Positions 47,047-59,658 of a stretch of DNA of 64,000 nucleotides are shown here, piece after piece. Each line of letters opens with the position of its first letter. The stretch's first letter is position 1. Position numbers and translations under genes: made by a program. This DNA is from Aminobacter ciceronei. Its GTDB lineage: Bacteria; Pseudomonadota; Alphaproteobacteria; Rhizobiales; Rhizobiaceae. Below the pieces are notes generated by a model. The model had not been told where the DNA came from and ran no database searches. It saw only the letters and a list, made by a program, of their open reading frames with translations. The stretch lies in NCBI RefSeq assembly GCF_014138625.1, contig NZ_JACJHY010000003.1:248001-312000 (forward strand), written 5' to 3'.

Positions 47047-49032
47047 ATGAACCAGCCCCATGATCAGAAATTCCGCACCTCGATGCTCGAGGAGAATGAC
47101 GGTCCCGGTCACAACCCGACCGACAACCGCACCATGGGCGACATCATCGCCAAGCGCTTCTCCCGCCGCAGCTTCCTCCAGGGTTCGCTCGCCGTCTCGG
47201 CCATCGCCGCAACCGTAAGCCCCATCGCAATCCTGCTCGCCGACGACGCCCGCGCCGCCTCTGCCTCCGCTTTTGCCTTCGACGAGATCGAGGCCGGCAT
47301 CGACGACAAGCATCACGTCGCCGCTGGCTACGACGCCGACGTGCTGTTGCGCTGGGGTGATCCGATCTTCGCCGACGCGCCCGAATTCGATCCGACCAAC
47401 CAGTCGGCGGAAGCCCAGGCCAAGCAGTTCGGCTACAACAACGATTATGTCGGCTATATCGCCCTCGAAGGCTCGTCCGAGCACGGCCTGCTGGTGGTCA
47501 ACCACGAATACACCAACGAGCACCTGATGTTCCCCGGCATCGTCAAGATCGTCGAGGGCAAGATCGAGGTCGCGCCAGCGGACCAGAAGCGCGTCGACAT
47601 CGAGATGGCGGCCCATGGCGGCACCATCGTCGAGATCCGCAAGGAAGCGGGCAAGTGGCATCCGGTCCGCGACGGCAAGCTCAACCGCCGCATCACTTCG
47701 ACCACCGAGATGCAGCTGACCGGCCCGGCCGCCGGCCATGATCGCCTGAAGACCAATGCCGATGCCACCGGTACCAAGGTGTACGGCACGCTCAACAACT
47801 GCGCCGGCGGCGTCACGCCCTGGGGCACCTACATCATGGCTGAGGAAAACTTCCACGGTTATTTCGGTGGCGAGCTGCCGGCCGATCATCCGGAGGCCGC
47901 CAACTACAAGCGCCTCGGCGTGCCGGAAGGCACTTATGAGTGGTTCAAGTTCTACGACCGCTTCGACGTCTCCAAGGAACCGAATGAGCCCAACCGCTTC
48001 GGCTGGATCGTCGAGGTCGACGTCAACGACCCGAACTCGCTGCCTAAGAAGCGCACGGCACTCGGTCGCTTCAAGCACGAGGGCGCTGAATCCATCGTGG
48101 CCAGCGACGGCCGCGTCGTCTTCTATCTCGGCGACGACGAGCGCTTCGACTACGTCTACAAGTTCGTGACCAAGGGCAAGTTCAACCCCGACGACCGTGC
48201 CGCCAATCTCGACCTGCTCGACGACGGCACGCTCTACGTCGCCAAATTCGCCGAGGACGGCACCTTCGCCTGGCTGCCGCTGGTCCAGGGCGACGGCCCG
48301 CTCACGGCCGACAACGGCTTTGTCAGCCAGGCCGACGTGGTCATCGAGACGCGCCGCGCCGCCGACCTGCTCGGTGCCACCAAGATGGACCGCCCCGAGG
48401 ACATCCAGCCCAATGCCGTCAACGGCAAGGTCTATGTCATGCTGACCAACAACACCAAGCGCAAGGCCGACCAGGTCGACGCTGCCAACCCGCGCGCCGA
48501 AAACGCCTTCGGCCACATCATCGAACTGATCGAGGACGGCAGCGATTTCACCGCCACCAAGGGCAAGTGGGAAGTGCTGCTCAAGTGTGGTGACCCGTCG
48601 GTCGCCGAGGTCGGCGCGTCATTTTCGACTTCGACCACCCAAAATGGCTGGTTCGGAATGCCCGACAACTGCGCCGTCGACTCCGCCGGCCGCCTGTGGG
48701 TGTCGACTGACGGAAATTCGCCCAAGGCCACCGGCCGCACCGACGGCCTGTGGGCCGTCGACACCGAGGGCGCGGCGCGCGCCACCTCGAAGCTGTTCTT
48801 CCGCGTGCCTGTCGGCGCCGAGATGTGCGGCCCGCTGTTCACGCCCGACGACCAGACCGCATTCGTTGCCGTCCAGCATCCGGCCGACGGTGGCGAGGAT
48901 TGGGAAGGCTTTGGCCGTCCGTCCTATTATGAGGACCTGTCGACGCGCTGGCCCGACTTCAAGCCCGATATGCCGGTCCGACCGGCCGTCGTCGCCATCA
49001 CCAGGCAGGGCGGCGGCAAGATCGCCGTCTGA
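47047..49032 (+). CDS. phoX: PhoX-family (DUF839) alkaline phosphatase
   Basis: This 661-aa protein carries a twin-arginine signal (FSRRSFLQGSLAVSAIAATVSP, about residues 36-57), as PhoX enzymes are exported folded with their Ca/Fe cofactors. The body has GYDADVLLRWGDPIF, LVVNHEYTNEHLMFPG, NNCAGGVTPWGTYIMAEENFHGYF, AESIVASDGRVVFYLGDDERFDYVYKFV and DNCAVDSAGRLWVSTDGN, all typical. It releases phosphate from organic phosphates under phosphate limitation. A Pho box upstream and a terminator at 49058 make it a single-gene unit. Confidence 0.94.
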   Translation: MNQPHDQKFRTSMLEENDGPGHNPTDNRTMGDIIAKRFSRRSFLQGSLAVSAIAATVSPIAILLADDARAASASAFAFDEIEAGIDDKHHVAAGYDADVLLRWGDPIFADAPEFDPTNQSAEAQAKQFGYNNDYVGYIALEGSSEHGLLVVNHEYTNEHLMFPGIVKIVEGKIEVAPADQKRVDIEMAAHGGTIVEIRKEAGKWHPVRDGKLNRRITSTTEMQLTGPAAGHDRLKTNADATGTKVYGTLNNCAGGVTPWGTYIMAEENFHGYFGGELPADHPEAANYKRLGVPEGTYEWFKFYDRFDVSKEPNEPNRFGWIVEVDVNDPNSLPKKRTALGRFKHEGAESIVASDGRVVFYLGDDERFDYVYKFVTKGKFNPDDRAANLDLLDDGTLYVAKFAEDGTFAWLPLVQGDGPLTADNGFVSQADVVIETRRAADLLGATKMDRPEDIQPNAVNGKVYVMLTNNTKRKADQVDAANPRAENAFGHIIELIEDGSDFTATKGKWEVLLKCGDPSVAEVGASFSTSTTQNGWFGMPDNCAVDSAGRLWVSTDGNSPKATGRTDGLWAVDTEGAARATSKLFFRVPVGAEMCGPLFTPDDQTAFVAVQHPADGGEDWEGFGRPSYYEDLSTRWPDFKPDMPVRPAVVAITRQGGGKIAV

Positions 49033-49057
49033 TAGAAGTCTTTGTGCCTGAGGGAAG

Positions 49058-49080
49058 CGGCCGCGTTCAGCGGCCGTTTT
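49058..49080 (+). terminator. Rho-independent terminator of phoX
   Basis: CGGCCGC-GTTCA-GCGGCCG followed by TTTTCATTTT, 26 bp after the stop codon. Confidence 0.8.
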
Positions 49081-49418
49081 CATTTTCCGGCCAGCGCCGG
49101 CCCGAGCGTGATCAGCGCCACCGCCACCACCGCGAGCCCGACGCCGATGCCCTGTATGCCGCTCAGCTTCTCGCCAAAATAAATGATGGCCACCGCGTTG
49201 ACGGCGATCAACTGGATCACCGCCGACAGCGAGAACGACACCGACATGCCGAAGTCCCGCACCAGGCGCAACATGATCAGGTTGCCCAGCGAATAGAGGA
49301 TCAGCGTCACCACCAGCTTGCCGATGGTCGGCTCGACGCCCCAGGTCTTGGCGACCATCGCGGCGATGAGGAAGATGACGGTCGAAAAACCGAGCAGCGA
49401 AAGGCCGACGACGGACAT
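49080..49418 (-). CDS. Small DMT/EamA-like membrane protein
   Basis: This 112-aa protein has four hydrophobic helices: GLSLLGFSTVIFLIAAMVAK, GKLVVTLILYSLGNLIMLRLV, SFSLSAVIQLIAVNAVAIIYFGE and GIGVGLAVVAVALITLGPAL. The penultimate segment with FGEKLSGIQGIGVGL is the EamA/SMR end motif. It probably acts as a dimer. Substrate unknown. Confidence 0.82.
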   Translation of the reverse strand: MSVVGLSLLGFSTVIFLIAAMVAKTWGVEPTIGKLVVTLILYSLGNLIMLRLVRDFGMSVSFSLSAVIQLIAVNAVAIIYFGEKLSGIQGIGVGLAVVAVALITLGPALAGK

Positions 49419-49521
49419 TTTTCAGGCAAGCTCCCACAAATGTCCGGCGATTTGCTCCGAATGCCGCGCCAACGTCAAGCAAAGCGGCGACACGCTCCAA
49501 CGTTATGGCGCCATGCGACGC

Positions 49522-49550
49522 AAAAACCCTCCCGTCCGGAAACGGGAGGG
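49522..49550 (-). terminator. Rho-independent terminator of the Cys-containing exported protein gene
   Basis: On the minus strand CCCTCCCGT-TTCCGG-ACGGGAGGG is followed by TTTTT, 36 bp beyond the stop codon. Confidence 0.85.
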
Positions 49551-49585
49551 CGCTTGGCTTCAGGTCTTGGGAACCCCTGATTCCA

Positions 49586-49891
49586 TCAGGGATAGGTACA
49601 CTTGCCCTTCTGCGGTTCGCCCTGCGGGCCCGGTGTGCCGGTCTCCTCCCAGTCGCCGCCATGGCTGATGCAATAGGAGATCATCAGGTTGCACGACGCC
49701 TTGTTGTTGCAGGTCTCGACATGGCCGTGGGTCTGTCCGCCGCCCGGCGCCTTGAGGCCGAGCTGGTGCGGCGGCGGTGCCGGCACGCGGGCCTTGAGCT
49801 GGGCAGCCGATGCAGCACCGGCAAAGGCCGACATCGAAAGTGCGAGCGTCGCGATCAGCGACGAGCGGATGATGGTGTTGGTCATGTTCAT
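49586..49891 (-). CDS. Small exported protein with four cysteines
   Basis: This 101-aa protein has a signal peptide (SSLIATLALSMSAFAGAASA, cleavage near residue 28) and a short mature part containing VETCNNKASCNLMISYCISHGGDW and KCTYP, four Cys in all. AGAGGAG lies 7 bases before the ATG at 49891. It has its own strong terminator. I do not recognise a family. It lies 3.9 kb from bufA, which also encodes a small exported four-Cys protein, but the sequences are not clearly related. Confidence 0.75.
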   Translation of the reverse strand: MNMTNTIIRSSLIATLALSMSAFAGAASAAQLKARVPAPPPHQLGLKAPGGGQTHGHVETCNNKASCNLMISYCISHGGDWEETGTPGPQGEPQKGKCTYP

Positions 49892-50059
49892 TTCGGTTCT
49901 CCTCTGGGACACTTTGATCTTGCGGCTCACCGGCCGCCACGATCGTGTGTGTCGGGGCTGGAGAAGAAGGTTCACGGCGGAGCTGGAAAAAAGTTCGGAC
50001 GATCTTTGAGGCCTCTTGCCATCCCGCGAAAACAGGCTGTCGGGCGGCAACCCGACAGC

Positions 50060-50809
50060 CTATTCGCCACTCACGGGGATCGTTGCAACAATCCGCCCGG
50101 AAAGCGCCAGGTCGTCGTTCGTCGCCATCACCGCCAGCGACGTCACCGGCAGTTCGGCCAACACGCGCCGCCGCCACCGCTCCGCCAATCCTGCCAGATC
50201 AGTCGTCTCCGCAGCGGTCAGAGCCGCCGCGAAATGGTAGAGGCCGACCACATGGAAGCGGGTCTGCCGCGCGCCGCAGGCTTGCTGGACCAGGCCGAAG
50301 ACATCTTCGTCGTGGTGGCAGCAGGGATAGACCGGCAGGTAGATCCGGCCGGTGTTGATCCGGCCGAGGAACGGCCCGCCGAGGCGCAGGGCAAGTGCTC
50401 CCAGCGGCGCGAGCGCTACGGTCACAGCCTGCACGCACCGCGCGATGTCGGGCTCGGACAGGCCACCGACGATGGTGGCATGCAGCTTGCCGGCGCGCTC
50501 GCGGCCGAGCTGCCAGGCGATCTTGTCGCTGAACGAAAACGAACGCAGCTCCGCCTCGAATGCTTGGAACGTATCGCTGCGGCCGAGCGCCTGGGCGTCG
50601 ATGGGGACGACAAGCGAATGGCGCGGCGTGTCATAGCGGCCATTGCGATAATCCGTGCCGTCCTTGCCGGCAATGATCTCGGCATGGCCTGGAGCAACCA
50701 GCGGCAGATGGGCAAGCCTATAGGCATCGTCGAAGGTCAGCGTCTCGCCGGGACCGAAGACCCGGCGCGACGCGTCAAAGGCCATGACGTTGTCGTTGCA
50801 GAATTTCAT
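50060..50809 (-). CDS. Hypothetical protein (possible 2H-phosphoesterase-like fold)
   Basis: This 249-aa soluble protein starts MKFCNDNVMAFDASRRVFGPG. It has a LHATIVGGLSEPD segment (an H-x-T motif) and later RFHVVGLYHFAAALTAAE (an H-F-A near the second expected position), with RIYLPVYPCCHHDEDVFGLVQQACG between them. This loosely recalls 2H phosphoesterases, but the second motif lacks Thr/Ser, so I give no function. It could be co-transcribed with the GNAT gene 36 bp upstream. Confidence 0.75.
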   Translation of the reverse strand: MKFCNDNVMAFDASRRVFGPGETLTFDDAYRLAHLPLVAPGHAEIIAGKDGTDYRNGRYDTPRHSLVVPIDAQALGRSDTFQAFEAELRSFSFSDKIAWQLGRERAGKLHATIVGGLSEPDIARCVQAVTVALAPLGALALRLGGPFLGRINTGRIYLPVYPCCHHDEDVFGLVQQACGARQTRFHVVGLYHFAAALTAAETTDLAGLAERWRRRVLAELPVTSLAVMATNDDLALSGRIVATIPVSGE

Positions 50810-50845
50810 CCTGAAACGTCCATGCGGCGGGTTCCCCCTGCGCGC

Positions 50846-51448
50846 TCATCCCGTTCGCGGCTTGACCATCAGCACCCAGTTCTCGCCTGCACCGGTCCAG
50901 CCATCCTTGACCATCGGCTCGGAGGCGACCTCGCGATAGCCGACGCTTTCATAGAGATGGCGGGCCTTGGTGTTGGCGTCCGAAACGATCAGGCTGGTGC
51001 CGGTGCAGCCGGTGGCCTCGGCGATCGCGTCGGCCATGGCCAGTAGCCGCGAGCCGTAGCCGCGCGCCCGTGCCTCCGGCAGCGTCGCCATGACGTTGAC
51101 ATACCAGCTGCCCACCGCCATCGCCTCGAGCATGTTGAATGGCACGAACATCGCCGGCGTGTCGGGGTCGGGCAACGACGGCTCGATCGGATAGCCGATC
51201 AGGCAGGCAATCACCTTGCCATGTTCCAGTACCACCGCGTTGCGATAGGAAAAGCTGCCTTGCTCGCGTTGCGCCCGCTGGCGGCCGACCTCCCAGGGGT
51301 CGCCACCTTCGGCCATCTTGGTCCAGAGATAAAGCGGCAGCCCGTCGCCAGCCATGTTGACCAGCTTGGCCAGGATCGCGGCGTCCTCCTTGGTGGCGGG
51401 CCGCGCCTCGGCAGTCAAACCCTCGTCGCGGTGCGCCTTTTCGGGCAT
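50846..51448 (-). CDS. GNAT family N-acetyltransferase
   Basis: This 200-aa acetyltransferase has the acetyl-CoA loop in MATLPEARARGYGSRLLAMADAI and the C-terminal TSLIVSDANTKARHLYESVGYREV of the GNAT fold. The N-terminus RPATKEDAAILAKLVNMAGDGLP is typical of amikacin/diverse-substrate GNATs, but no substrate can be assigned. It precedes the unknown 249-aa gene. Confidence 0.88.
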   Translation of the reverse strand: MPEKAHRDEGLTAEARPATKEDAAILAKLVNMAGDGLPLYLWTKMAEGGDPWEVGRQRAQREQGSFSYRNAVVLEHGKVIACLIGYPIEPSLPDPDTPAMFVPFNMLEAMAVGSWYVNVMATLPEARARGYGSRLLAMADAIAEATGCTGTSLIVSDANTKARHLYESVGYREVASEPMVKDGWTGAGENWVLMVKPRTG

Positions 51449-51558
51449 GACATGCTCCTCCAGTCCACAGCGTCCCCTCGCTGCGGCAGTATAGGAGCGC
51501 GCGTTCCGGGCGGCGTCAACCGCCGACCGCGTGTGTCTCGGGCAGGCCCGCCACCACC

Positions 51559-52062
51559 TCAGTCTTTACGTGCGCCAAGGCCAACCAGCCTGTCCAGAGA
51601 AAGCTGTCCGCCCCCATAAGCAGCCAGCGCCAATGCCATCGCCGCCCAGGGCAGATGGAAATTGGCCCAGCCCTCCGGCACCGTCAGTTGGATCACTGCC
51701 GTCATCGCCAGGATGCCGAGGGCGGCAAAGCGCGTGCCGAGCCCCAGCACCAGCAGGATCGGCAGCACAATCTCGCCGATGCCTGCCAGCGTCGCCATCA
51801 GGATCGGCGCCGGATAGGGGTACTGGCTGCCGAGGATGTGCAGCGAAAACTCCTGGGTAAACAGATAGCGCGCGCCGTTGGACAGCGTCAGGAAGCCGTC
51901 CCATTTGGTCAGTCCCGACTTGAAGAACGGCACGGCGATGGCAAAGCGCAGCGCCAGGAGTGGCAGCGCCTCGGGGATCGCCGCAATCGCTGACTCAATG
52001 CGCCGGATCGCGGAGCCCAAGCCGGCCTTGTGCGCCATTGGCGCGTGGTTGATGTCGCTCAT
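51559..52062 (-). CDS. DoxX family membrane protein (bufferin locus)
   Basis: This 167-aa protein has four membrane helices, with LPLLALRFAIAVPFFKSGLTKWDG, PAPILMATLAGIGEIVLPILLVLGLGTRFAALG and VPEGWANFHLPWAAMALALAAYGGGQLSLD, the DoxX pattern. Its ATG overlaps the bufC stop codon (ATGA). DoxX-like proteins are frequent last genes of DUF2282-DUF692-DUF2063 operons, where they may serve redox or metal handling in the membrane. Confidence 0.9.
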   Translation of the reverse strand: MSDINHAPMAHKAGLGSAIRRIESAIAAIPEALPLLALRFAIAVPFFKSGLTKWDGFLTLSNGARYLFTQEFSLHILGSQYPYPAPILMATLAGIGEIVLPILLVLGLGTRFAALGILAMTAVIQLTVPEGWANFHLPWAAMALALAAYGGGQLSLDRLVGLGARKD

Positions 52063-52823
52063 CTCATGTCTCCTTGTTGGTCAGCCACGCCGGCGAACAT
52101 GCCGAGCGCGACCAGGCCGACGATGGCGCGGCCGAAGTCGAATGCCGGGTCCGTGTCGAAGGCTTCAGCCGCGGCGTCGCCGATGCTGTCGCCGCGCAAC
52201 AGCGCTGCCGCGAACACCGCGTCCGCCTCGGCGATGACATGCACGGCCACCTCGATGTCCGGCCGGGTGATCACGATGCTCTCCGGCTCGAGCACCGTCT
52301 GCACGCGGACCTCGTCGCCCTGGTGGGCCTGCCAGATCGTCCCGATGGAAAACTTCGAACGAACCAGCGCCGCCGCCGGATGCGCAATGAGGGTGGCGCT
52401 GCCGAGCCGCTCGGGCGCCAGCCTTGCCAGCGCCGCGACGTCGAGCGGAACGATGTCGGCGGCGTGGTAGGCGCGGGTCCAGTAGGCCTCCAGCCGCGCC
52501 GTGTCGGCGAGATAGGGCAGGGCGGCGGCCGGGGCGAAGCCGGCGACGAAATCGGGAAAGCTGTCGCCATAGGCAAACATCACCGGGCTATCGGGCAGCG
52601 TCGTTGCGATGAAGGCGCGTGCCATGCCGTTGAAGAAGTCGTCGCCGACAAGCCGCCGCAGAACCGGGAAACGCTGGCTCAGCGCCTTGGAGAGCGAAAC
52701 CGCGACATTGTTGCGGTAGACGGCGAAGCGCGCCGCATCAGCCTCGCCGCGCGCGCTGGTCACGCCGTCCGGCAGCGGTCGTGTGGCATCGAGCAAGGCT
52801 GAGGCAAACGTGTTCTGGTCCAT
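52059..52823 (-). CDS. bufC: BufC-like DUF2063 protein
   Basis: This 254-aa protein begins with a DUF2063 (HvfC/BufC N-terminal) domain: FASALLDATRPLPDGV, RFAVYRNNVAVSLSKALSQRFPVLRRLVGDDFFNGMARAFI and YGDSFPDFVAGF. Such proteins act as partners of DUF692 iron enzymes and recruit the substrate peptide. The ATG at 52823 (or the GTG at 52829, which overlaps the bufB stop) starts it, so bufB, bufC and doxX are tightly coupled. Confidence 0.9.
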   Translation of the reverse strand: MDQNTFASALLDATRPLPDGVTSARGEADAARFAVYRNNVAVSLSKALSQRFPVLRRLVGDDFFNGMARAFIATTLPDSPVMFAYGDSFPDFVAGFAPAAALPYLADTARLEAYWTRAYHAADIVPLDVAALARLAPERLGSATLIAHPAAALVRSKFSIGTIWQAHQGDEVRVQTVLEPESIVITRPDIEVAVHVIAEADAVFAAALLRGDSIGDAAAEAFDTDPAFDFGRAIVGLVALGMFAGVADQQGDMR

Positions 52824-52825
52824 CG

Positions 52826-53713
52826 TCACGCGCGCCTGGAAAACCGCGCATCGCGCCGCAGCGCTGCCTCGTCGAGCACGGCCTCGGCGCGCGTGGCCTC
52901 CGCCAGCAGCACGGCAAAGGCCGGCACGTCATTGTCCCATTCGATCAGCGTCGGTACCGGGCCGGTGCGGCCGATCGTGTGGCGATAGAGCGAAAAGACG
53001 TCGTCGGCGACTGTCGAATTGTGGGCGTCGATCAGCAGCCGGTCACCGGCGCCGTCGACGGTCTCGTCATAGCCGGCGAGGTGGATCTCGCCGACGCGCT
53101 CGACCGGGAAGCGGTCGATGTAAGCGAACGGGTCGAGCCTGTGGTTGATGGCCGACACCATCACGTTGTTGACGTCGAGCAGCAGCCCGCAGCCGGTCCT
53201 TTCGGCAATGGCGTCGAGGAAGTCGATCTCGTCGATCGTGCTGTCTTCGAACAGGATGTAGGTCGAGGGATTTTCGAGCAGCATGCGCCGCCCCACCGCC
53301 TGCTGCACCTCGTCGACATGGGCGCTGACATGCGCCAGCGTCCGGTTCGTATAGGGCAGCGGCAGCAGGTCGTTCAGGAAGCCGGCGTCATGCGTCGACC
53401 AGGCCAGATGTTCGGAAAAGGACTGCGGCTGGTAGCGGTCGATCAGCCGCCGCAGCCGCGCCAGATGCGCCTTGTCGAGTGGTCGTTCGGCCCCGATCGA
53501 CAATCCGACGCCGTGCAGCGACAGCGGATAGCGCGCAACGATCTCGGACAGTGTCCGGTGCGGCGCACCGCCGTCGCCCATATAATTCTCGGCATGGACC
53601 TCGAAGAAGCCGATTTCGGGCTCGGTCGCGATGATTTCGCCTATGTGCTCGGGTTTGAGGCCAAGGCCCGCGCGGGCGGGTAGGGACTGGCCGCTTTGTG
53701 TACCGGTATTCAT
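52826..53713 (-). CDS. bufB: BufB-like DUF692 multinuclear iron oxidase (MNIO)
   Basis: This 295-aa TIM-barrel enzyme is of the DUF692/MNIO family, which modify Cys residues of small exported peptides using iron and O2. Metal-ligand-bearing motifs are [60 protein letters not shown] and [10 protein letters not shown]. The start at 53713 reads [23 protein letters not shown]; the upstream open frame is not MNIO-like. It follows bufA by 62 bp with a strong hairpin between them. Confidence 0.94.
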
Positions 53714-53744
53714 GCTGGGTGCTCGGATGGGTCGGGCAGGCGAG

Positions 53745-53770
53745 ATGGGGCCCGGCGCGCCGGGCCCCAT
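53745..53770 (-). promoter_or_regulatory. 26-bp perfect palindrome between bufA and bufB
   Basis: The arm ATGGGGCCCGGCG is followed by its exact complement, giving a very stable 11-13-bp GC stem in the mRNA, 5 bp after the bufA stop. With no T run it likely protects the bufA mRNA or partly attenuates read-through, so that the peptide outnumbers its modifying enzyme. Confidence 0.7.
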
Positions 53771-53775
53771 GTGCA

Positions 53776-54063
53776 TCACATGGCAGTTGGCTCGAGCATG
53801 CCCTTGTGACCGTCGACGTCCATCGTCGTGCAGGTGCCGGCCGGCACGGCCTTCCAGGCGTTGCCCTGATAGTCCATGGTCGAGGTGCCGGCGCAGGTCG
53901 TGCCTGCTCCCGCGGCGCAATCGTTCTGGCCCTTCAGCGAAATGCCGTAGCACTTTTCCATGCCGACCATCTTTTCAGCCGGCAGCGGGGCGGCAAAGGC
54001 GGACGAGGCAAGTGCCGATGCGAGCGAGCCGGCGAGAGCAAGGGCTAGGGTCTGGCGATTCAT
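53776..54063 (-). CDS. bufA: BufA-like exported Cys-rich precursor (DUF2282)
   Basis: This 95-aa precursor has a signal peptide ([18 protein letters not shown], cleavage near residue 24) and a mature part with [43 protein letters not shown], four Cys in the DUF2282 pattern. In the bufferin model the Cys residues are modified by BufB to metal-binding groups and the peptide sequesters copper or similar metals in the periplasm. GGAGAA lies before the ATG. First gene of the leftward bufA-bufB-bufC-doxX operon. Confidence 0.92.
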
Positions 54064-54119
54064 GACGTTCTCCTGATAAAGGATTGACAGGGAAGCGTTC
54101 TGCGTCCCATGCCGTCGAC

Positions 54120-54145
54120 TTCGCCGGCACCTCGCCATTCGTTAC
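54120..54145 (-). promoter_or_regulatory. Putative SigF-type promoter of bufA operon
   Basis: On the minus strand GTAACG (54140-54145) and CGAA (54120-54123) are separated by 16 bp. This recalls the GTAACC...CGAA motif of Caulobacter SigF targets as I remember it. It lies 56 bp before the bufA ATG. Confidence 0.6.
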
Positions 54146-54191
54146 GCCGGGCCGTGAACACGGTTTCGTGAGTGAGACGGCAGTTGGCGTT

Positions 54192-54239
54192 GTAACATTT
54201 CTGCGTCGACTGAAGTAACAAACGGCTTTTTAAGCCGAA
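54192..54239 (+). promoter_or_regulatory. Putative autoregulated promoter of sigF
   Basis: GTAACA occurs twice (54192-54197 and 54215-54220); the second is followed after 15 bp by CGAA (54236-54239), close to the bufA promoter pattern but one base shorter. It ends 16 bp before the sigF start codon. Confidence 0.45.
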
Positions 54240-54255
54240 GAGAAGGAAGACAGGC

Positions 54256-54792
54256 TTGACGAGGACGGATGACGCCGAACTCGCTCGGCTTTTCAGGGCG
54301 GCAATTTCAGGTGACGAAGGCGCATACGCTGCCTTTCTCGATGGCGTGGCGCAATTGGTGCGCGGATACTGCCGCAGACGTATCGTGCATGGCGGCGTCG
54401 AGCCGGAGGATGTCGTCCAGGAGGTTCTGCTTGCGATTCATCTGAAGCGTCATACCTGGCGCCAGGATGAAGCAGTGACGCCTTGGGTCTACGCCATCGC
54501 CCGCTACAAGCTGATCGATGCCTTCCGCCGCCGCGGCAAGCGCATTGAGGTCGACATCGCAGACTTCGCCGAAACGCTCGCCGAGCCCGAGAAGGACGAA
54601 GTGGGCGAGCGCGACATCGGCCGTGCGCTCGACGGCCTGGCCCCGGTGCAGCGCAGTGTCGTTGCCTCGGTTTCGGTCGAGGGCGCCTCGATCGGCGAGA
54701 CGGCCAATGCGCTTGGCATGACCGAGACGGCGGTGCGGGTGGCGCTGCATCGCGGCCTCAAGGCGATCGCGCATCGCTTCAGACAGGACTGA
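54256..54792 (+). CDS. sigF: ECF sigma factor, SigF type
   Basis: This 178-aa ECF sigma factor has region 2 in RRRIVHGGVEPEDVVQEVLLAIHLKRHTWRQDEAVTPWVYAIARYKLIDAFRRRGKR and region 4 in LDGLAPVQRSVVASVSVEGASIGETANALGMTETAVRVALHRGLKAI. The start is a TTG at 54256, preceded by GAAGGAAGA; no in-frame ATG lies nearby. Followed 11 bp later by nrsF, its membrane anti-sigma. In Caulobacter SigF answers chromate, cadmium and similar metal stress and drives DUF2282/DUF692 genes, as the divergent operon here suggests. Confidence 0.92.
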   Translation: MTRTDDAELARLFRAAISGDEGAYAAFLDGVAQLVRGYCRRRIVHGGVEPEDVVQEVLLAIHLKRHTWRQDEAVTPWVYAIARYKLIDAFRRRGKRIEVDIADFAETLAEPEKDEVGERDIGRALDGLAPVQRSVVASVSVEGASIGETANALGMTETAVRVALHRGLKAIAHRFRQD

Positions 54793-54803
54793 ACGGAACG
54801 GAA

Positions 54804-55442
54804 ATGGAAACGAAGAATCTCATCACGGCGATTTCCAGCGACGCGGCAGCAGGCCGGCGTTCGTTCGGCACGCTGCTGCGCGCCGCCTTCGTTGCGGCAA
54901 GCGTCATTGCCGCTGTCGTCTTTTCCGTCGTCGCCGGCCCGCGCGCCGATTTTGCCGCCGCCGCCGAAACCTGGCGTTTCCTCCTCAAATTCGTTGTCAC
55001 CCTGGCGCTGGTTGCCACATCGGGTGCGGTGGCTATTGCACTCGCCCGTCCCGGTGCACGGCTTGGCATGCGTGTCGCGTTGCTCGCTGCCGCACCCGCC
55101 ATCCTGCTCGGCGCGGTCCTGATCGAACTCACCACCATTGCCCCTTCTGAATGGGCGACCCGGCTTGTCGGCACCAACAACATGGTTTGCCTGACGCTGA
55201 TCCCACTCATCGGTCTCGGCCCGCTCGCCATCTTCCTCGTCGCCATGCGCCAGGGCGCGCCGACGCGGCCCAGCCTCGCCGGTGCCGCCTGCGGCCTGCT
55301 CGCCGGCGGCCTTGCCGCGACGCTCTACGCCGCCCACTGCTTCGACGACTCGCCGTTTTTCGTCGCCACCTGGTACACGCTGGCCATCGCCATCCTGACC
55401 GTCGTCGGCGCGATCGCCGGCCGGTACGTCCTGCGCTGGTAG
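54804..55442 (+). CDS. nrsF: NrsF (DUF1109) membrane anti-sigma factor
   Basis: This 212-aa protein has six membrane helices and a short N-terminal cytoplasmic tail (METKNLITAISSDAAAGRRS). Three Cys are present, C129 (NNMVCLTLI), C163 and C179 (YAAHCFDDSPF). C129 and C179 agree with the two conserved periplasmic cysteines through which Caulobacter NrsF (Cys131/Cys181, from memory) senses metals. It should hold SigF at the membrane until metal or redox stress releases it. Confidence 0.93.
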   Translation: METKNLITAISSDAAAGRRSFGTLLRAAFVAASVIAAVVFSVVAGPRADFAAAAETWRFLLKFVVTLALVATSGAVAIALARPGARLGMRVALLAAAPAILLGAVLIELTTIAPSEWATRLVGTNNMVCLTLIPLIGLGPLAIFLVAMRQGAPTRPSLAGAACGLLAGGLAATLYAAHCFDDSPFFVATWYTLAIAILTVVGAIAGRYVLRW

Positions 55443-55462
55443 CAAAGCGCCGCAAAGCCGCG

Positions 55463-55491
55463 CTTGTTAACCCTTGCGGCCCCTGCTAAAG
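55463..55491 (+). promoter_or_regulatory. Possible promoter of lepA
   Basis: CTTGTT (55463-55468) and CTAAAG (55486-55491) are 17 bp apart. Transcription would start about 55498, almost at the ATG at 55500. Confidence 0.4.
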
Positions 55492-55499
55492 CGCGGCGC

Positions 55500-57308
55500 A
55501 TGACCACACCGCTCGACCACATCCGCAATTTCTCCATCGTTGCCCATATCGATCATGGCAAGTCGACGCTTGCCGACCGGCTGATCCAGTCCACCGGCGG
55601 GCTGGAACTGCGCGAGATGACCGAGCAGGTCCTCGACAACATGGACATCGAGCGCGAGCGCGGCATCACCATCAAGGCTCAGACCGTTCGGCTCAACTAC
55701 CGTGCCAACAATGGCGAGGATTACATCCTCAACCTGATCGACACGCCCGGACACGTCGACTTCGCCTATGAAGTCTCGCGCTCGCTGTCGGCCTGCGAGG
55801 GCTCGCTGCTCGTCGTCGACGCTTCCCAGGGCGTCGAGGCGCAGACACTGGCGAACGTCTACCAGGCCATCGACAACAACCACGAGATCGTCGTCGTCCT
55901 CAACAAGATCGACCTGCCCGCCGCCGAGCCCGAGCGCATCAAGGAGCAGGTCGAGGAAGTCATCGGCATCGACGCCTCGCAAGCCGTCCACATCTCGGCC
56001 AAGACCGGCCTCGGCATCGAGGACGTGCTCGAGGCGATCGTCACCCAGTTGCCGCCGCCGCGCGAGGGCGACATCGACGCGCCGCTCAAGGCGATGCTGG
56101 TCGACAGCTGGTACGACACCTATCTCGGCGTCATCGTCCTGGTGCGCATCATCGATGGCAAGCTCAAGAAGGGCCAGACCATCCGGATGATGGAGACCAA
56201 CGCCAAATATCTGGTCGAGCGTACCGGCGTCTTCACGCCGAAGATGGTCCAGGTCGACGAACTCGGCCCGGGTGAATTCGGCTTCTTCACCGGCTCGATC
56301 AAGGAAGTGGCCGACACCCGCGTCGGCGACACCATCACCGAGGACAAGCGCCCCACCGCAAAGGCCCTGCCGGGCTTCAAGCCGGCCCAGCCGGTGGTGT
56401 TCTGCGGCCTGTTCCCGGTCGACGCCGCCGATTTCGAGGACCTCCGCGCCGCCATGGGCAAGCTGCGCCTCAACGACGCCAGCTTCTCCTTCGAAATGGA
56501 AACCTCGGCCGCACTCGGCTTCGGTTTCCGCTGCGGCTTCCTCGGCCTGCTGCATCTCGAGATCATCCAGGAGCGGCTCGAGCGCGAGTTCAACCTCGAC
56601 CTCATCGCCACCGCCCCCAGCGTCGTCTACCGCATGAACCTCAATGACGGGTCGACCAAGGAACTGCACAATCCCGCCGACATGCCCGACGTGGTCAAGA
56701 TCGCCGCGATCGAGGAGCCGTGGATCCGCGCCACCATCCTCACCCCGGACGATTATCTCGGCTCGATCCTGAAACTCTGCCAGGAGCGCCGCGGCATTCA
56801 GGCCGACCTCTCTTATGTCGGCAAGCGCGCCATGCTGGTCTACGATCTGCCGCTCAACGAGGTCGTGTTCGATTTCTATGACCGCCTGAAGTCGATCTCC
56901 AAGGGCTACGCCTCCTTCGACTATCACCTGACCGACTACCGCGAGGGCGACCTCGTCAAGATGTCGATCCTGGTCAATGAGGAGCCCGTCGACGCGCTGT
57001 CGATGCTCGTCCATCGCACCGCCGCGGAAAAGCGCGGCCGCGTCATGGTCGAGAAGCTGAAGGAGCTGATCCCGCAGCACATGTTCAAGATCCCCGTCCA
57101 GGCCGCCATCGGCGGCAAGGTCATTGCCCGCGAGACCATCTCGGCGCTGCGCAAGGACGTCACCGCCAAGTGCTACGGCGGCGACGTCACCCGCAAGCGC
57201 AAGCTGCTCGAGAAGCAGAAAGAGGGCAAGAAGCGCATGCGCCAGTTCGGCAAGGTCGACATCCCGCAGGAAGCCTTTATCCAGGCGCTCAAGATGGGCG
57301 ACAACTAG
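55500..57308 (+). CDS. lepA: Elongation factor 4 (LepA)
   Basis: This 602-aa ribosome-bound GTPase promotes back-translocation or assembly under stress. G1 is [14 protein letters not shown], switch [12 protein letters not shown]3 [13 protein letters not shown]4 NKIDLPAA and G5 SAKTGLG. Domains II-V follow, and the LepA-specific C-terminal domain ends with [24 protein letters not shown]. The ATG at 55500 begins the family N-terminus; an in-frame TTG upstream (55464) is unlikely. No obvious Shine-Dalgarno precedes it. Confidence 0.98.
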
Positions 57309-57319
57309 CGTTCTCTTTT

Positions 57320-57460
57320 TCCTTCTCCCCGTTCACGGGGGTGAGGAGTGCCCGGCCAACGTTCGATCAGTCGACAATGATGTGTCGACTGAAGCGACGA
57401 ACGCCCGGAGCCATAACGGAGGGCGGTGGCCCGCAGGGCCGGATGAGGGGCGGCGCAACT
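57320..57460. repeat. Mosaic repeat: outer module split by inner module
   Basis: The outer module is CCTTCTCCCCGTTCACGGGG (57321-57340) and GGTGGCCCGCAGGGCCGGAT followed by GAGGGG (57425-57450). About 80 bp in between contains GGTGAGGAGTG, the hairpin CAGTCGACA-ATGATG-TGTCGACTG (57368-57391) and CGACGAACGCCCGGAGCCAT joined to AACGGAGGGC. The same inner module, reversed, is at 30430-30520. The outer module is uninterrupted at 59681. Confidence 0.75.
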
Positions 57461-57684
57461 CTGCGCGATCTCCTAAAAGTATCAATGCCGCATGCTGATC
57501 GCGACCCGGCTTATCTCGCCCTCAACAATCGTCTCCACTCCATCTACAGTCATCCCGCAGTGCAAACGCGTATTGCACCGCAGCGTCGAATTATTCGCGG
57601 CCACGCGTCTTCGACTGTTCTGTCGATTTACTGGCATCGTGAAGATGGCTAGCCTTCCCCTCGCATTCTGCCAGAGGGAACATC
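57461..57684. other. Intergenic remainder before the FAD oxidoreductase
   Basis: About 220 bp without a supported gene; it must contain the promoter of the gene at 57685. AGAGGGAAC directly before that ATG is the ribosome binding site. Confidence 0.4.
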
Positions 57685-59658
57685 ATGAACTGGACTGAAA
57701 AGGACAAGAAACTGGGTATGGACCGCGCCATAACAAGGCGCGATTTCATGGACGGCGTGGCGATGGCGATCGGCGGCGCGGTGGCCTTGCGCGCCATGGG
57801 CCCCGGCCAGGCACGCGCGCAAGCTGCCGCCACCGCCTACCCGCCTGCCGCTGCGGAGCTGCAGGGGCAGACCGACACTGCCCAGAATGTCATGCATGCC
57901 GTCCGCGACGGCACCTACTGGTCCGACGCCGGCCCGGTCACGTCGAGCGCCGAGAGCTACGACCTCGTCGTCGTCGGTGCCGGTATTTCGGGCCTTGCCG
58001 CCGCACATGCCTTCCGCAAACAGGCCGGCCCCGACAAGCGTGTGCTGATCGTCGATCCGCTCGCCGATTTCGGCGGCCACGCCAAGCGCAACGAATTCAC
58101 CGCTTCGAATGGTTCGAAGCTGATCGGTTATGGCGGCAGCCAGTCGATGCAGACGCCGAGTTACTTCAGCCCCGCCGTCAACGCGCTGCTCGCCGACATC
58201 GGCATCGAACCGAAACGCTTCGAAACCTTCTACGATCAGAAATGGTCCGATGATCGCGGCCTGTCGGGCGCCATCTTCTTCTCCAAGGAGCAGTGGGGCG
58301 AGGACAGGCTGGTGATCCGCAAGGGCAAGCCGGCCGAATGGGTGGCCAACACACCGCTCAACGACAAGGCCAAGGCCGACCTGATCCAGCTTATGGAAGC
58401 GCCCGGCGACTATCTGCCCGGCCTAAACAGCGAGCAGCGCCTGCAGAAACTGTCGGAGATCACCTACAGGGCGTTCCTGCTCGACCATGCCAAGGTCGAC
58501 CCGCAAGTCGCTGACTATTTTGCCACCTCGACCAATGGCTATTTCGGCGTCGGCATCGACACTGCGAGCGCACTCGACGCGCGCGCCAACGGAAATCCGG
58601 GTTTTGACGGTATGGATCTCGGCGAGGCTGTGTCGAAATACAACAGCCCGTCCGGCCGTCTCGCCTTCACCGACCCCGACGACTACATCTACCATTTCCC
58701 CGACGGCAATGCCGGCATCGCCCGCGCTCTGGTACGCGCGCTGGTGCCAGGCGCGCTTGCCGGCACGACAATGGAGGAGCTGGTTACCGAAACCGTCGAC
58801 TATTCAGCCCTCGACAAGCCGGAAAACGCTGTCCGCATCAGGCTGAATTCGACAGTCGTCAAGGTCGCGCATGATGGCGCCCCAGGCAGCGCCAGCTCGG
58901 TTACCGTCACCTATGCCGATATCAAGGGCAAGCCGGTCAGCATCAAGGCCGGGCACGTCGTGCTCGCCTGCTGGCACCGGGTCATTCCCTATCTCACCGA
59001 CGAACTCGGCACTGAGCAGACAACTGCCCTCAACGACCAGCAGAAGGTGCCGCTGATCTACGCCAACGTCCAGCTGCGCAACTGGGAGGCCTTCGACAAG
59101 CTCAAGATCGACGGTTTCAGGGCGCGCGGCGATTTCTGGAGCGGCGCCGACATCGATTTCCCCGTCTCGATGGGCGCCTACAAATTCGCCGACAAGCCTG
59201 AGGATCCCGTCATCTTGCACCTCTCCAAGGTGATGACCAGCCCGGGCCTTGCCCCGCGCGAACAGGCGCTGGCCGGGCGGCGGGCAATGATGGCGCTGAG
59301 CTTCGAGGAGATGGAGCGCTCGATCCGCGACCTGCTCGGCCGCGCCCTGTCAGGCGGCGGCTTCGACCCCGCTCGCGACATAGAGGCCATCACCTGCAAT
59401 CGCTGGTCGCACGGCTACGCCTACGAATATATGCGCCCCGGCGACCGTTTCTGGCCCGACGGCCCGCTGCCCATCGAAGCCGCGCGCAAGCCATGGGGCC
59501 GCATCTCGATCGCCAACGCCGACAGCGGCGCCTACGCCTACGCCCATTCGGCGATCGACCAGGGCGTGCGTGCGGTACGGGATCTGCTGGGGACGCCTGA
59601 AGGAGCGCCCGACTATGCCCGCTTCCCGGGGCCTCCGGCGGAGAAGATCGGGCTCTAA
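57685..59658 (+). CDS. Tat-exported FAD/NAD(P)-binding oxidoreductase, spermidine dehydrogenase-like
   Basis: This 657-aa protein has a twin-arginine-type signal (MDRAITRRDFMDGVAMAIGGAVALRAMG), a Rossmann FAD motif DLVVVGAGISGLAAAHAFR near residue 93, and VDPLADFGGHAKRNEF, the FAD second motif. The C-terminal segment has AITCNRWSHGYAYEYMRPGDRFWPD and RISIANADSGAYAYAHSAIDQGVRA. Overall it resembles periplasmic spermidine dehydrogenases, but the substrate is not proven. It stands alone between two repeats. Confidence 0.85.
   Translation: MNWTEKDKKLGMDRAITRRDFMDGVAMAIGGAVALRAMGPGQARAQAAATAYPPAAAELQGQTDTAQNVMHAVRDGTYWSDAGPVTSSAESYDLVVVGAGISGLAAAHAFRKQAGPDKRVLIVDPLADFGGHAKRNEFTASNGSKLIGYGGSQSMQTPSYFSPAVNALLADIGIEPKRFETFYDQKWSDDRGLSGAIFFSKEQWGEDRLVIRKGKPAEWVANTPLNDKAKADLIQLMEAPGDYLPGLNSEQRLQKLSEITYRAFLLDHAKVDPQVADYFATSTNGYFGVGIDTASALDARANGNPGFDGMDLGEAVSKYNSPSGRLAFTDPDDYIYHFPDGNAGIARALVRALVPGALAGTTMEELVTETVDYSALDKPENAVRIRLNSTVVKVAHDGAPGSASSVTVTYADIKGKPVSIKAGHVVLACWHRVIPYLTDELGTEQTTALNDQQKVPLIYANVQLRNWEAFDKLKIDGFRARGDFWSGADIDFPVSMGAYKFADKPEDPVILHLSKVMTSPGLAPREQALAGRRAMMALSFEEMERSIRDLLGRALSGGGFDPARDIEAITCNRWSHGYAYEYMRPGDRFWPDGPLPIEAARKPWGRISIANADSGAYAYAHSAIDQGVRAVRDLLGTPEGAPDYARFPGPPAEKIGL

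Follow-up and report, generated by a model that had tools for sequence, protein, structure and literature searches.

A Buf1 bufferin cluster with a divergent SigF–NrsF pair in Aminobacter ciceronei and a conserved stem at its precursor–enzyme border

Peptide copper buffers of the bufferin type have been recognised only recently, and a six-gene block in the genome of Aminobacter ciceronei raises the question of what kind of peptide system a soil bacterium keeps there and which signal switches it on. The block lies in a 64,000-nucleotide (nt) stretch of contig NZ_JACJHY010000003.1 (positions 248,001 to 312,000 of the forward strand; hereafter the window), within a genome of 6.77 Mb. A first-pass annotation made from the letters alone had described bufA, bufB, bufC and doxX as one leftward operon, with sigF and nrsF running rightwards from the same intergenic region. 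All six genes are present at the positions it gave, 51559-55442, each family scoring above its Pfam cut-off (Table 1), and the divergent gap between bufA and sigF measures 192 bp, as it had stated. Judged by its genes, the locus is an ordinary, intact-looking Buf1 bufferin cluster with an apparent switch of the ECF16 type (ECF, extracytoplasmic function sigma factor). It offers a clean soil-bacterium example of these copper buffers and mostly confirms the published picture. The layout itself is already known; what is new here is a stem at the border between bufA and bufB, a second island with variant sigma/NrsF pairs in the same genome, and a patchy distribution across the genus.

Identity of the Locus

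The enzyme BufB, a multinuclear non-heme iron-dependent oxidative enzyme (MNIO), scores above the NCBIfam MNIO_BufB (NF050167) equivalog cut-off (383.9 against 310; the query for its Pfam and NCBIfam scores was one codon longer than the ATG-start protein), and SigF scores above that of NF009165 (239.6 against 198). Its NrsF partner and its promoter type suggest that SigF belongs to group ECF16. At the corresponding locus of Aminobacter carboxidus DSM 1086 (L007), sigF is 95% and bufB 85.473% identical to the window's copies. By eye, BufA has four cysteines and a signal-like N-terminal segment. The tightly overlapping operon of the first-pass annotation holds for bufB, bufC and doxX, with 2 nt between the first two and a 4-nt overlap between the last two; bufA stands apart, 62 nt away from bufB.

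Aligned to VcMbnB (7dz9), BufB keeps seven of the eight iron ligands (H91, E135, D165, N168, H194, D209 and E238; ligand list from PMC8888699), while the remaining one, H55, falls beyond the aligned stretch and is tentatively assigned from the alignment to 3bww. The search of solved structures returned no match for BufC or BufA. In Caulobacter, Buf1 bears copper-binding thiooxazoles, with Cu(I)/Cu(II) as ligand metals and the central cysteines as modification targets (PMC12452194; product type also from PMC13097082), and by analogy BufB would be expected to modify cysteines of BufA. Product structure and metal specificity had both been thought open. The Caulobacter thiooxazoles mean that the type of product is not wholly so, and for the metal specificity of this organism the first-pass view holds. 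An insert of about 1 kb separates bufB from bufC in seven of the loci used for comparison (L033, L040, L045, L053, L070, L077 and L170); the insert of L170 is annotated as a hypothetical protein and may be of the adjamnio-VI type named in PMC12452194.

Table 1. Features of the bufferin locus, in window coordinates.
Feature	Position	Strand	Evidence
doxX (bufD), membrane-protein family	51559-52062	-	PF07681 (DoxX), 63.3 bits against cut-off 23.6
bufC, DUF2063 partner of MNIO	52059-52823	-	PF09836, 88 bits against cut-off 27.2
bufB, MNIO (DUF692) iron enzyme, ATG start	52826-53713	-	PF05114 (MbnB_TglH_ChrH), 352.1 bits against cut-off 25
bufA-bufB gap, 62 nt, strong GC stem	53714-53775	-	Perfect palindrome at 53747-53768; proposed divider of precursor and enzyme mRNA
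bufA, 95-residue precursor, DUF2282 (Buf1)	53776-54063	-	PF10048, 87.7 bits against cut-off 22.4
SigF-type promoter of bufABCD, GTAACG-N16-CGAA	54120-54145	-	Motif; 56 nt from CGAA to bufA ATG
SigF-type promoter of sigF-nrsF, GTAACA-N15-CGAA	54215-54239	+	Motif; 16 nt upstream of TTG start
sigF, ECF sigma factor, TTG start	54256-54792	+	Pfam sigma70 r2, 43.6 against cut-off 24; r4_2, 39.1 against 25.7
nrsF, anti-sigma factor (DUF1109/NrsF family) with C129 and C179	54804-55442	+	PF06532, 175.5 bits against cut-off 26.8

SigF-Type Promoters and Relation to Known Systems

Our comparison set consists of the 80 top-scoring named MNIO loci out of at least 572, which are accordingly close relatives. 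A divergent sigF stands beside bufA in 40 of these 80, and nrsF accompanies it in 39 of the 40 (L071 is the divergent locus without an nrsF BLAST match), which argues that the co-occurrence of these genes is not due to chance. The first-pass description of a regulon-like block finds support in the promoters, since SigF-type motifs face both units in the window and are retained in related divergent loci. Counted from GTAAC, the window has GTAAC-N17-CGAA on the bufA side and GTAAC-N16-CGAA on the sigF side, the latter spacer being one shorter. With either CGAA or CGTA as the -10 element, the motif occurs on the bufA side in 32/40 and on the sigF side in 35/40 divergent loci, against about 0.1 and 0.05 expected from dinucleotide shuffles; it is found in both directions in 27/40 and in at least one direction in 40/40. 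The CGTA form was admitted only after loci without the CGAA form had been seen. Restricted to CGAA, the counts are 18/40 on each side, with 0.15 (bufA) and 0.2 (sigF) expected.

Across the genome the motif is not enriched: GTAAC-N15-18-CGAA gives 91 matches against 233 for a reversed-pattern control, and the CGTA form 27 against 306. We therefore did not take lone genomic matches as promoters, and used only the window pair, the cluster on contig C15 described below and one further site. This last lies on contig C1, where GTAACG-N16-CGTA precedes the likely ATG of one of the genome's three PF00174 genes by 70 nt; we take this gene to be MsrP-like.

Some related loci depart from this arrangement. 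In several Rhizobium-type loci with tandem bufA genes, the -10 element is CGTA, not CGAA, whichever way the promoter faces. A SigF-type motif also stands upstream of bufA in 15/40 non-divergent loci. In five loci (L010, L011, L012, L013 and L026) GTAAC-N16/17-CGAA precedes bufA although the stretch examined revealed no sigma gene, so bufferin operons of this kind may be driven by a distant sigma factor.

The first-pass annotation had regarded the arrangement in this lineage as open, a view that does not survive comparison with two described systems. Caulobacter crescentus SigF/NrsF, with CC3254-CC3257 (Buf1), shares with the window all six families, SigF-dependent promoters at both units and the spacing of the NrsF cysteines (PMC3511200, PMC8224329). 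Within the Rhizobiales, Sinorhizobium meliloti rpoE7-ecfR7 with SMb20530-20527 has the same divergent layout, as compared by description, and its mapped promoters, GTAAC-N17-CGAA and GTAAC-N16-CGAA, are those of the window (PMC6180224). Sigma and NrsF genes have also been recorded in Buf1 clusters (PMC12452194). The likeness may extend beyond the locus: the Caulobacter SigF regulon includes the YedY gene CC2748 (PMC3511200), and the genome studied here has the MsrP-like gene with its SigF-type promoter. Bradyrhizobium EcfF/OsrA, of group ECF16, resembles the window pair in its DUF1109 anti-sigma factor with C129 and C179 and in its GTAAC(g,a) promoters; it is tied to methionine sulfoxide reductases and H2O2, and the parts of that account used here do not mention bufferin genes (PMC3420878).

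A Conserved Stem Between Precursor and Enzyme Genes

The gap between bufA and bufB holds a strong hairpin, with a folding z of -2.08 for 53717-53800 (the gap with flank) and a perfect palindrome of 22 nt. We counted a stem as perfect when at least 8 bp were all Watson-Crick and the loop measured 3-12. Among 79 of the 80 named loci (L072, in which the script found no bufA stop, was dropped), 49 have such a stem after the last bufA and ahead of bufB, against 1.8 expected from shuffles. The excess persists in representatives below 75% BufB identity (18/34, 0.75 expected) and in hold-out plasmid loci (8/12, 0.5 expected), the latter chosen for genus variety from 60 listed of 348 records. An earlier score, which lets a single mismatch pass and rates some clean stems too low, gave 5/12 for the hold-out (0.7 expected) and 22/34 for the representatives (3.6 expected) at a threshold of 9 that was set on the named loci before the hold-out was scored. 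The perfect-stem measure was adopted after clean stems had been seen scoring low, so the hold-out is not fully blind for it.

At a score of at least 9, stems occur within 70 nt after bufA in 54/79 loci and within 70 nt after the bufB match in 7/79. Perfect stems are commoner where a divergent sigma gene is present (30/40, against 19/39 in the remaining loci). The stem thus marks the border between the precursor block and the enzyme block. Such an element is simple, frequent and easily broken, and could show how such operons might make more peptide than enzyme. Literature searches returned no report of a stem-loop or hairpin in bufferin or DUF692 operons, the DUF692 set being judged by title and start of abstract, and a search for stem-loops linked to stoichiometry at precursors of ribosomally synthesised and post-translationally modified peptides returned nothing relevant. 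Tandem bufA copies that are stem-free between them were seen in L027, L029-L032, L037, L039, L044, L051, L055, L057, L058, L067 and L086.

Conserved Cysteines of NrsF

Two cysteines had been reported for NrsF at positions matching those of Caulobacter. The protein has three (129, 163 and 179), of which two form a conserved pair: in 70 aligned rows, C129 is present in 70/70, C179 in 68/70 and C163 in 6/70. The distance from C129 to C179 is 50, equal to that between C131 and C181 in Caulobacter. This alignment contains the window NrsF twice (win and FL115), draws its loci from the window's family from the 30 available of 47 family matches, and excludes L071, L008 (nrsF cut by the locus end) and L089 (no usable match). 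Both rows without C179 are island NrsF proteins of the same genome.

Proposed Mechanism and Alternatives

We consider it highly probable that a Buf1 bufferin system under an autoregulated ECF16-type switch accounts for the locus as a whole. The genes and their families, the promoter motifs with their conservation, the conserved NrsF cysteines and the conserved stem are all directly observed, and published homologues suggest how they could work together. At rest, membrane-bound NrsF would hold SigF. Envelope stress, caused perhaps by copper or some other thiophilic metal, perhaps by an oxidant, would be read at C179 and free SigF, with C129 keeping NrsF competent for binding. Freed SigF would fire both divergent promoters and probably also that of the MsrP-like gene elsewhere in the genome. 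By analogy, BufB and BufC would convert the two central cysteines of BufA into thiooxazoles and exported BufA would buffer copper in the periplasm, presumably in that order, with DoxX in an assisting role. The mRNA stem between bufA and bufB might set the stoichiometry, so that more precursor than enzyme is made.

Several observations weigh against parts of this scheme. NrsF scores 98.2 against a cut-off of 300 on the NCBIfam AntiSigF_NrsF equivalog (NF042994), making it a family member and not a certified equivalog. For the genome's other two PF00174 genes, on contigs C9 and C16, the sites listed include no GTAAC directly upstream. Stems reaching 8 bp are absent from 30/79 named loci and from 4/12 hold-out loci, where the four stemless bufA-bufB gaps measure just 5-31 nt. 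In S. meliloti, neither H2O2 nor Cd nor chromate induced rpoE7 or its target, and no inducer was found there (PMC6180224). Finally, the homologous gig cluster was without effect on copper resistance in Cupriavidus metallidurans, with redundancy noted (PMC8224329).

The published signals of relatives differ, and we therefore do not call NrsF a proven direct sensor of metal, although the first-pass annotation had credited the locus with a metal sensor of its own. OsrA of Bradyrhizobium answers H2O2, its C179 being required for the release of EcfF (PMC3420878), the Brucella ECF16 pair responds to HOCl (PMC8315932), and a Caulobacter sigF mutant has been reported to withstand oxidative stress less well in stationary phase (as cited in PMC8224329). 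Together with the SigF-type promoter of the MsrP-like gene, these reports would suit a response directed mainly at oxidants (H2O2 or HOCl), in which NrsF senses oxidation and the bufferin either protects from copper only incidentally or serves as a sink based on sulfur. Nevertheless, we think such a response unlikely as the primary role, given that in Caulobacter Cr, Cd and Cu induce the SigF genes, agents generating reactive oxygen species do not (PMC3511200, PMC8224329), and the Caulobacter product chelates copper (PMC12452194). In favour of the main scheme, the Caulobacter sigF mutant is copper-sensitive and the regulon copper-induced (PMC8224329).

Two further alternatives concern the stem and the product. 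The stem may be a mere leaky terminator or a generic intergenic structure and not a dedicated stoichiometry element: GC-rich genomes bear such stems, a perfect one of at least 8 bp being present in 5/33 same-strand gaps of 25-130 nt from stretches of this genome, and a leaky terminator would likewise reduce expression of the enzymes. This explanation is possible but somewhat doubtful. TTTT follows within 10 nt in just 2/57 stems, so most are unlike classical terminators, and 5/33 compares with 49/79 at the bufferin border, even though the 33 gaps may include the genome's own two bufA-bufB gaps. Between the bufA genes of tandem loci (n = 15) no stem scores above 6; this control is weaker than it appears, because most of those gaps are very short (13 of only 31-43 nt, one of zero). 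As for the product, an oxazolin (Hvf) or methanobactin system in place of a bufferin is very improbable. The locus proteins do cross-match the corresponding models, but weakly and always below cut-off (HvfB-type 248.8/360, HvfC 42.8/142, HvfX 57/80, MbnB 63.5/325), whereas BufB exceeds the cut-off of its own model and the precursor is a DUF2282 protein. Both identities are thus disfavoured at the family level, the MbnB and HvfB/C/X equivalog thresholds not being reached, and bufferin is the assignment we retain.

A Second Bufferin Island

The same genome carries a second island on contig C15, at 95-137 kb (L003, L004, L006), where bufA2-bufB2-bufC2-doxX2 are followed by a second sigma factor and NrsF and then by thioredoxin and DsbD-type genes. 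A lone bufA3 comes with a third sigma/NrsF pair, and a MerC-DUF2282 fusion lies near genes that look mer-like by eye. The second bufferin set thus has sigma/NrsF-like pairs of its own, unlike that of Caulobacter, where a single SigF regulon takes in both operons (PMC3511200, PMC8224329).

Eight of the 91 genomic GTAAC-N15-18-CGAA sites fall within 31.4 kb of C15, and the seven with an N17 spacer all lie 50-250 nt upstream of a same-strand gene (by our own gene calls). The base after GTAAC is C or T in all seven (GTAACY-N16-CGAA), and G or A at both window promoters and at the site on C1. A similar division is seen among the named loci, with A or G in 66/67 divergent-class promoters and C or T in 8/8 from nine co-directional island-type loci (L040 has no promoter motif, and the eight scored are mutually related). 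The rule is not universal, since Caulobacter, as published, combines a two-cysteine NrsF with GTAACC.

The NrsF proteins divide in a comparable way. Island-type NrsF, comprising those of the nine co-directional loci, NrsF2 of C15 and Nitrobacter L174, has no C179 position; a C129 equivalent and an FHxxDA motif are common to all. Except in L174, which has a cysteine nearby, these proteins also share a Gln-Cys further upstream, mostly as IGYQC. NrsF3 retains the C129 equivalent alone. Gene orientation was considered as a strict class rule and dropped: Paracoccus L171 is co-directional with a two-cysteine NrsF, and Nitrobacter L174 is divergent with an island-type one.

We tentatively put forward a joint proposal, which we regard as plausible without being confident of it: that the conserved border stem sets the ratio of precursor to enzyme in bufferin operons, and that this organism runs insulated SigF-like circuits. 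On the window side, the circuit would consist of the two-cysteine NrsF (C129/C179) and GTAACR promoters at bufA, sigF and the MsrP-like gene. On the C15 side, it would consist of an NrsF2 without C179, with IGYQC, the C129 equivalent and FHxxDA, of an NrsF3 keeping just the C129 equivalent, and of GTAACY promoters. If this is true, the base adjacent to the -35 element and the chemistry of the sensor have both diverged, so that distinct stores of bufferin stay under different signals. Having such sigma/NrsF variants side by side in a single genome would also provide a natural test of NrsF sensing, as two of them are without the cysteine thought to read the signal.

Distribution and History

Among 121 genomes of the window's family, an MNIO match was found in 62 and an NrsF match in 38; in 23, including the window's, the two lie within about 4 kb of each other on opposite strands, as judged by eye. 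The locus is patchy across the genus, the MNIO gene being present in 3/10 genomes and adjoining lepA in all three. A comparable absence from some strains has been described for the S. meliloti locus (PMC6180224).

In six of the seven genus genomes without the MNIO gene, about 0.8-4.4 kb of other DNA separates the flanking matches. The seventh, G123 (L164), has merely 48 bp between them, and its lepA-side match (L164 7947-7980) opens with the last nrsF codons (AIAGRYVLRW and stop), a deletion scar. This nrsF remnant beside lepA gives at least one of the absences the look of a loss. In L160, too, the match starts within the end of nrsF, although the letters there do not spell out nrsF. Between the GNAT and lepA matches, L158, L159, L161 and L163 hold TetR-type and homocysteine S-methyltransferase-type genes, as judged by eye.

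Neighbouring Features

A search for tRNA genes at 49000-58000 of the window found none, and an Rfam search of 51400-55600 returned two matches below the gathering threshold (che1 and AsrC), which we regard as chance. About 1.5 kb past doxX, at 49586-50050 on the minus strand, the window encodes a small cysteine-containing protein that matches neither Pfam nor NCBIfam models at E 0.1 and shows a signal-like start when read from an inner ATG.

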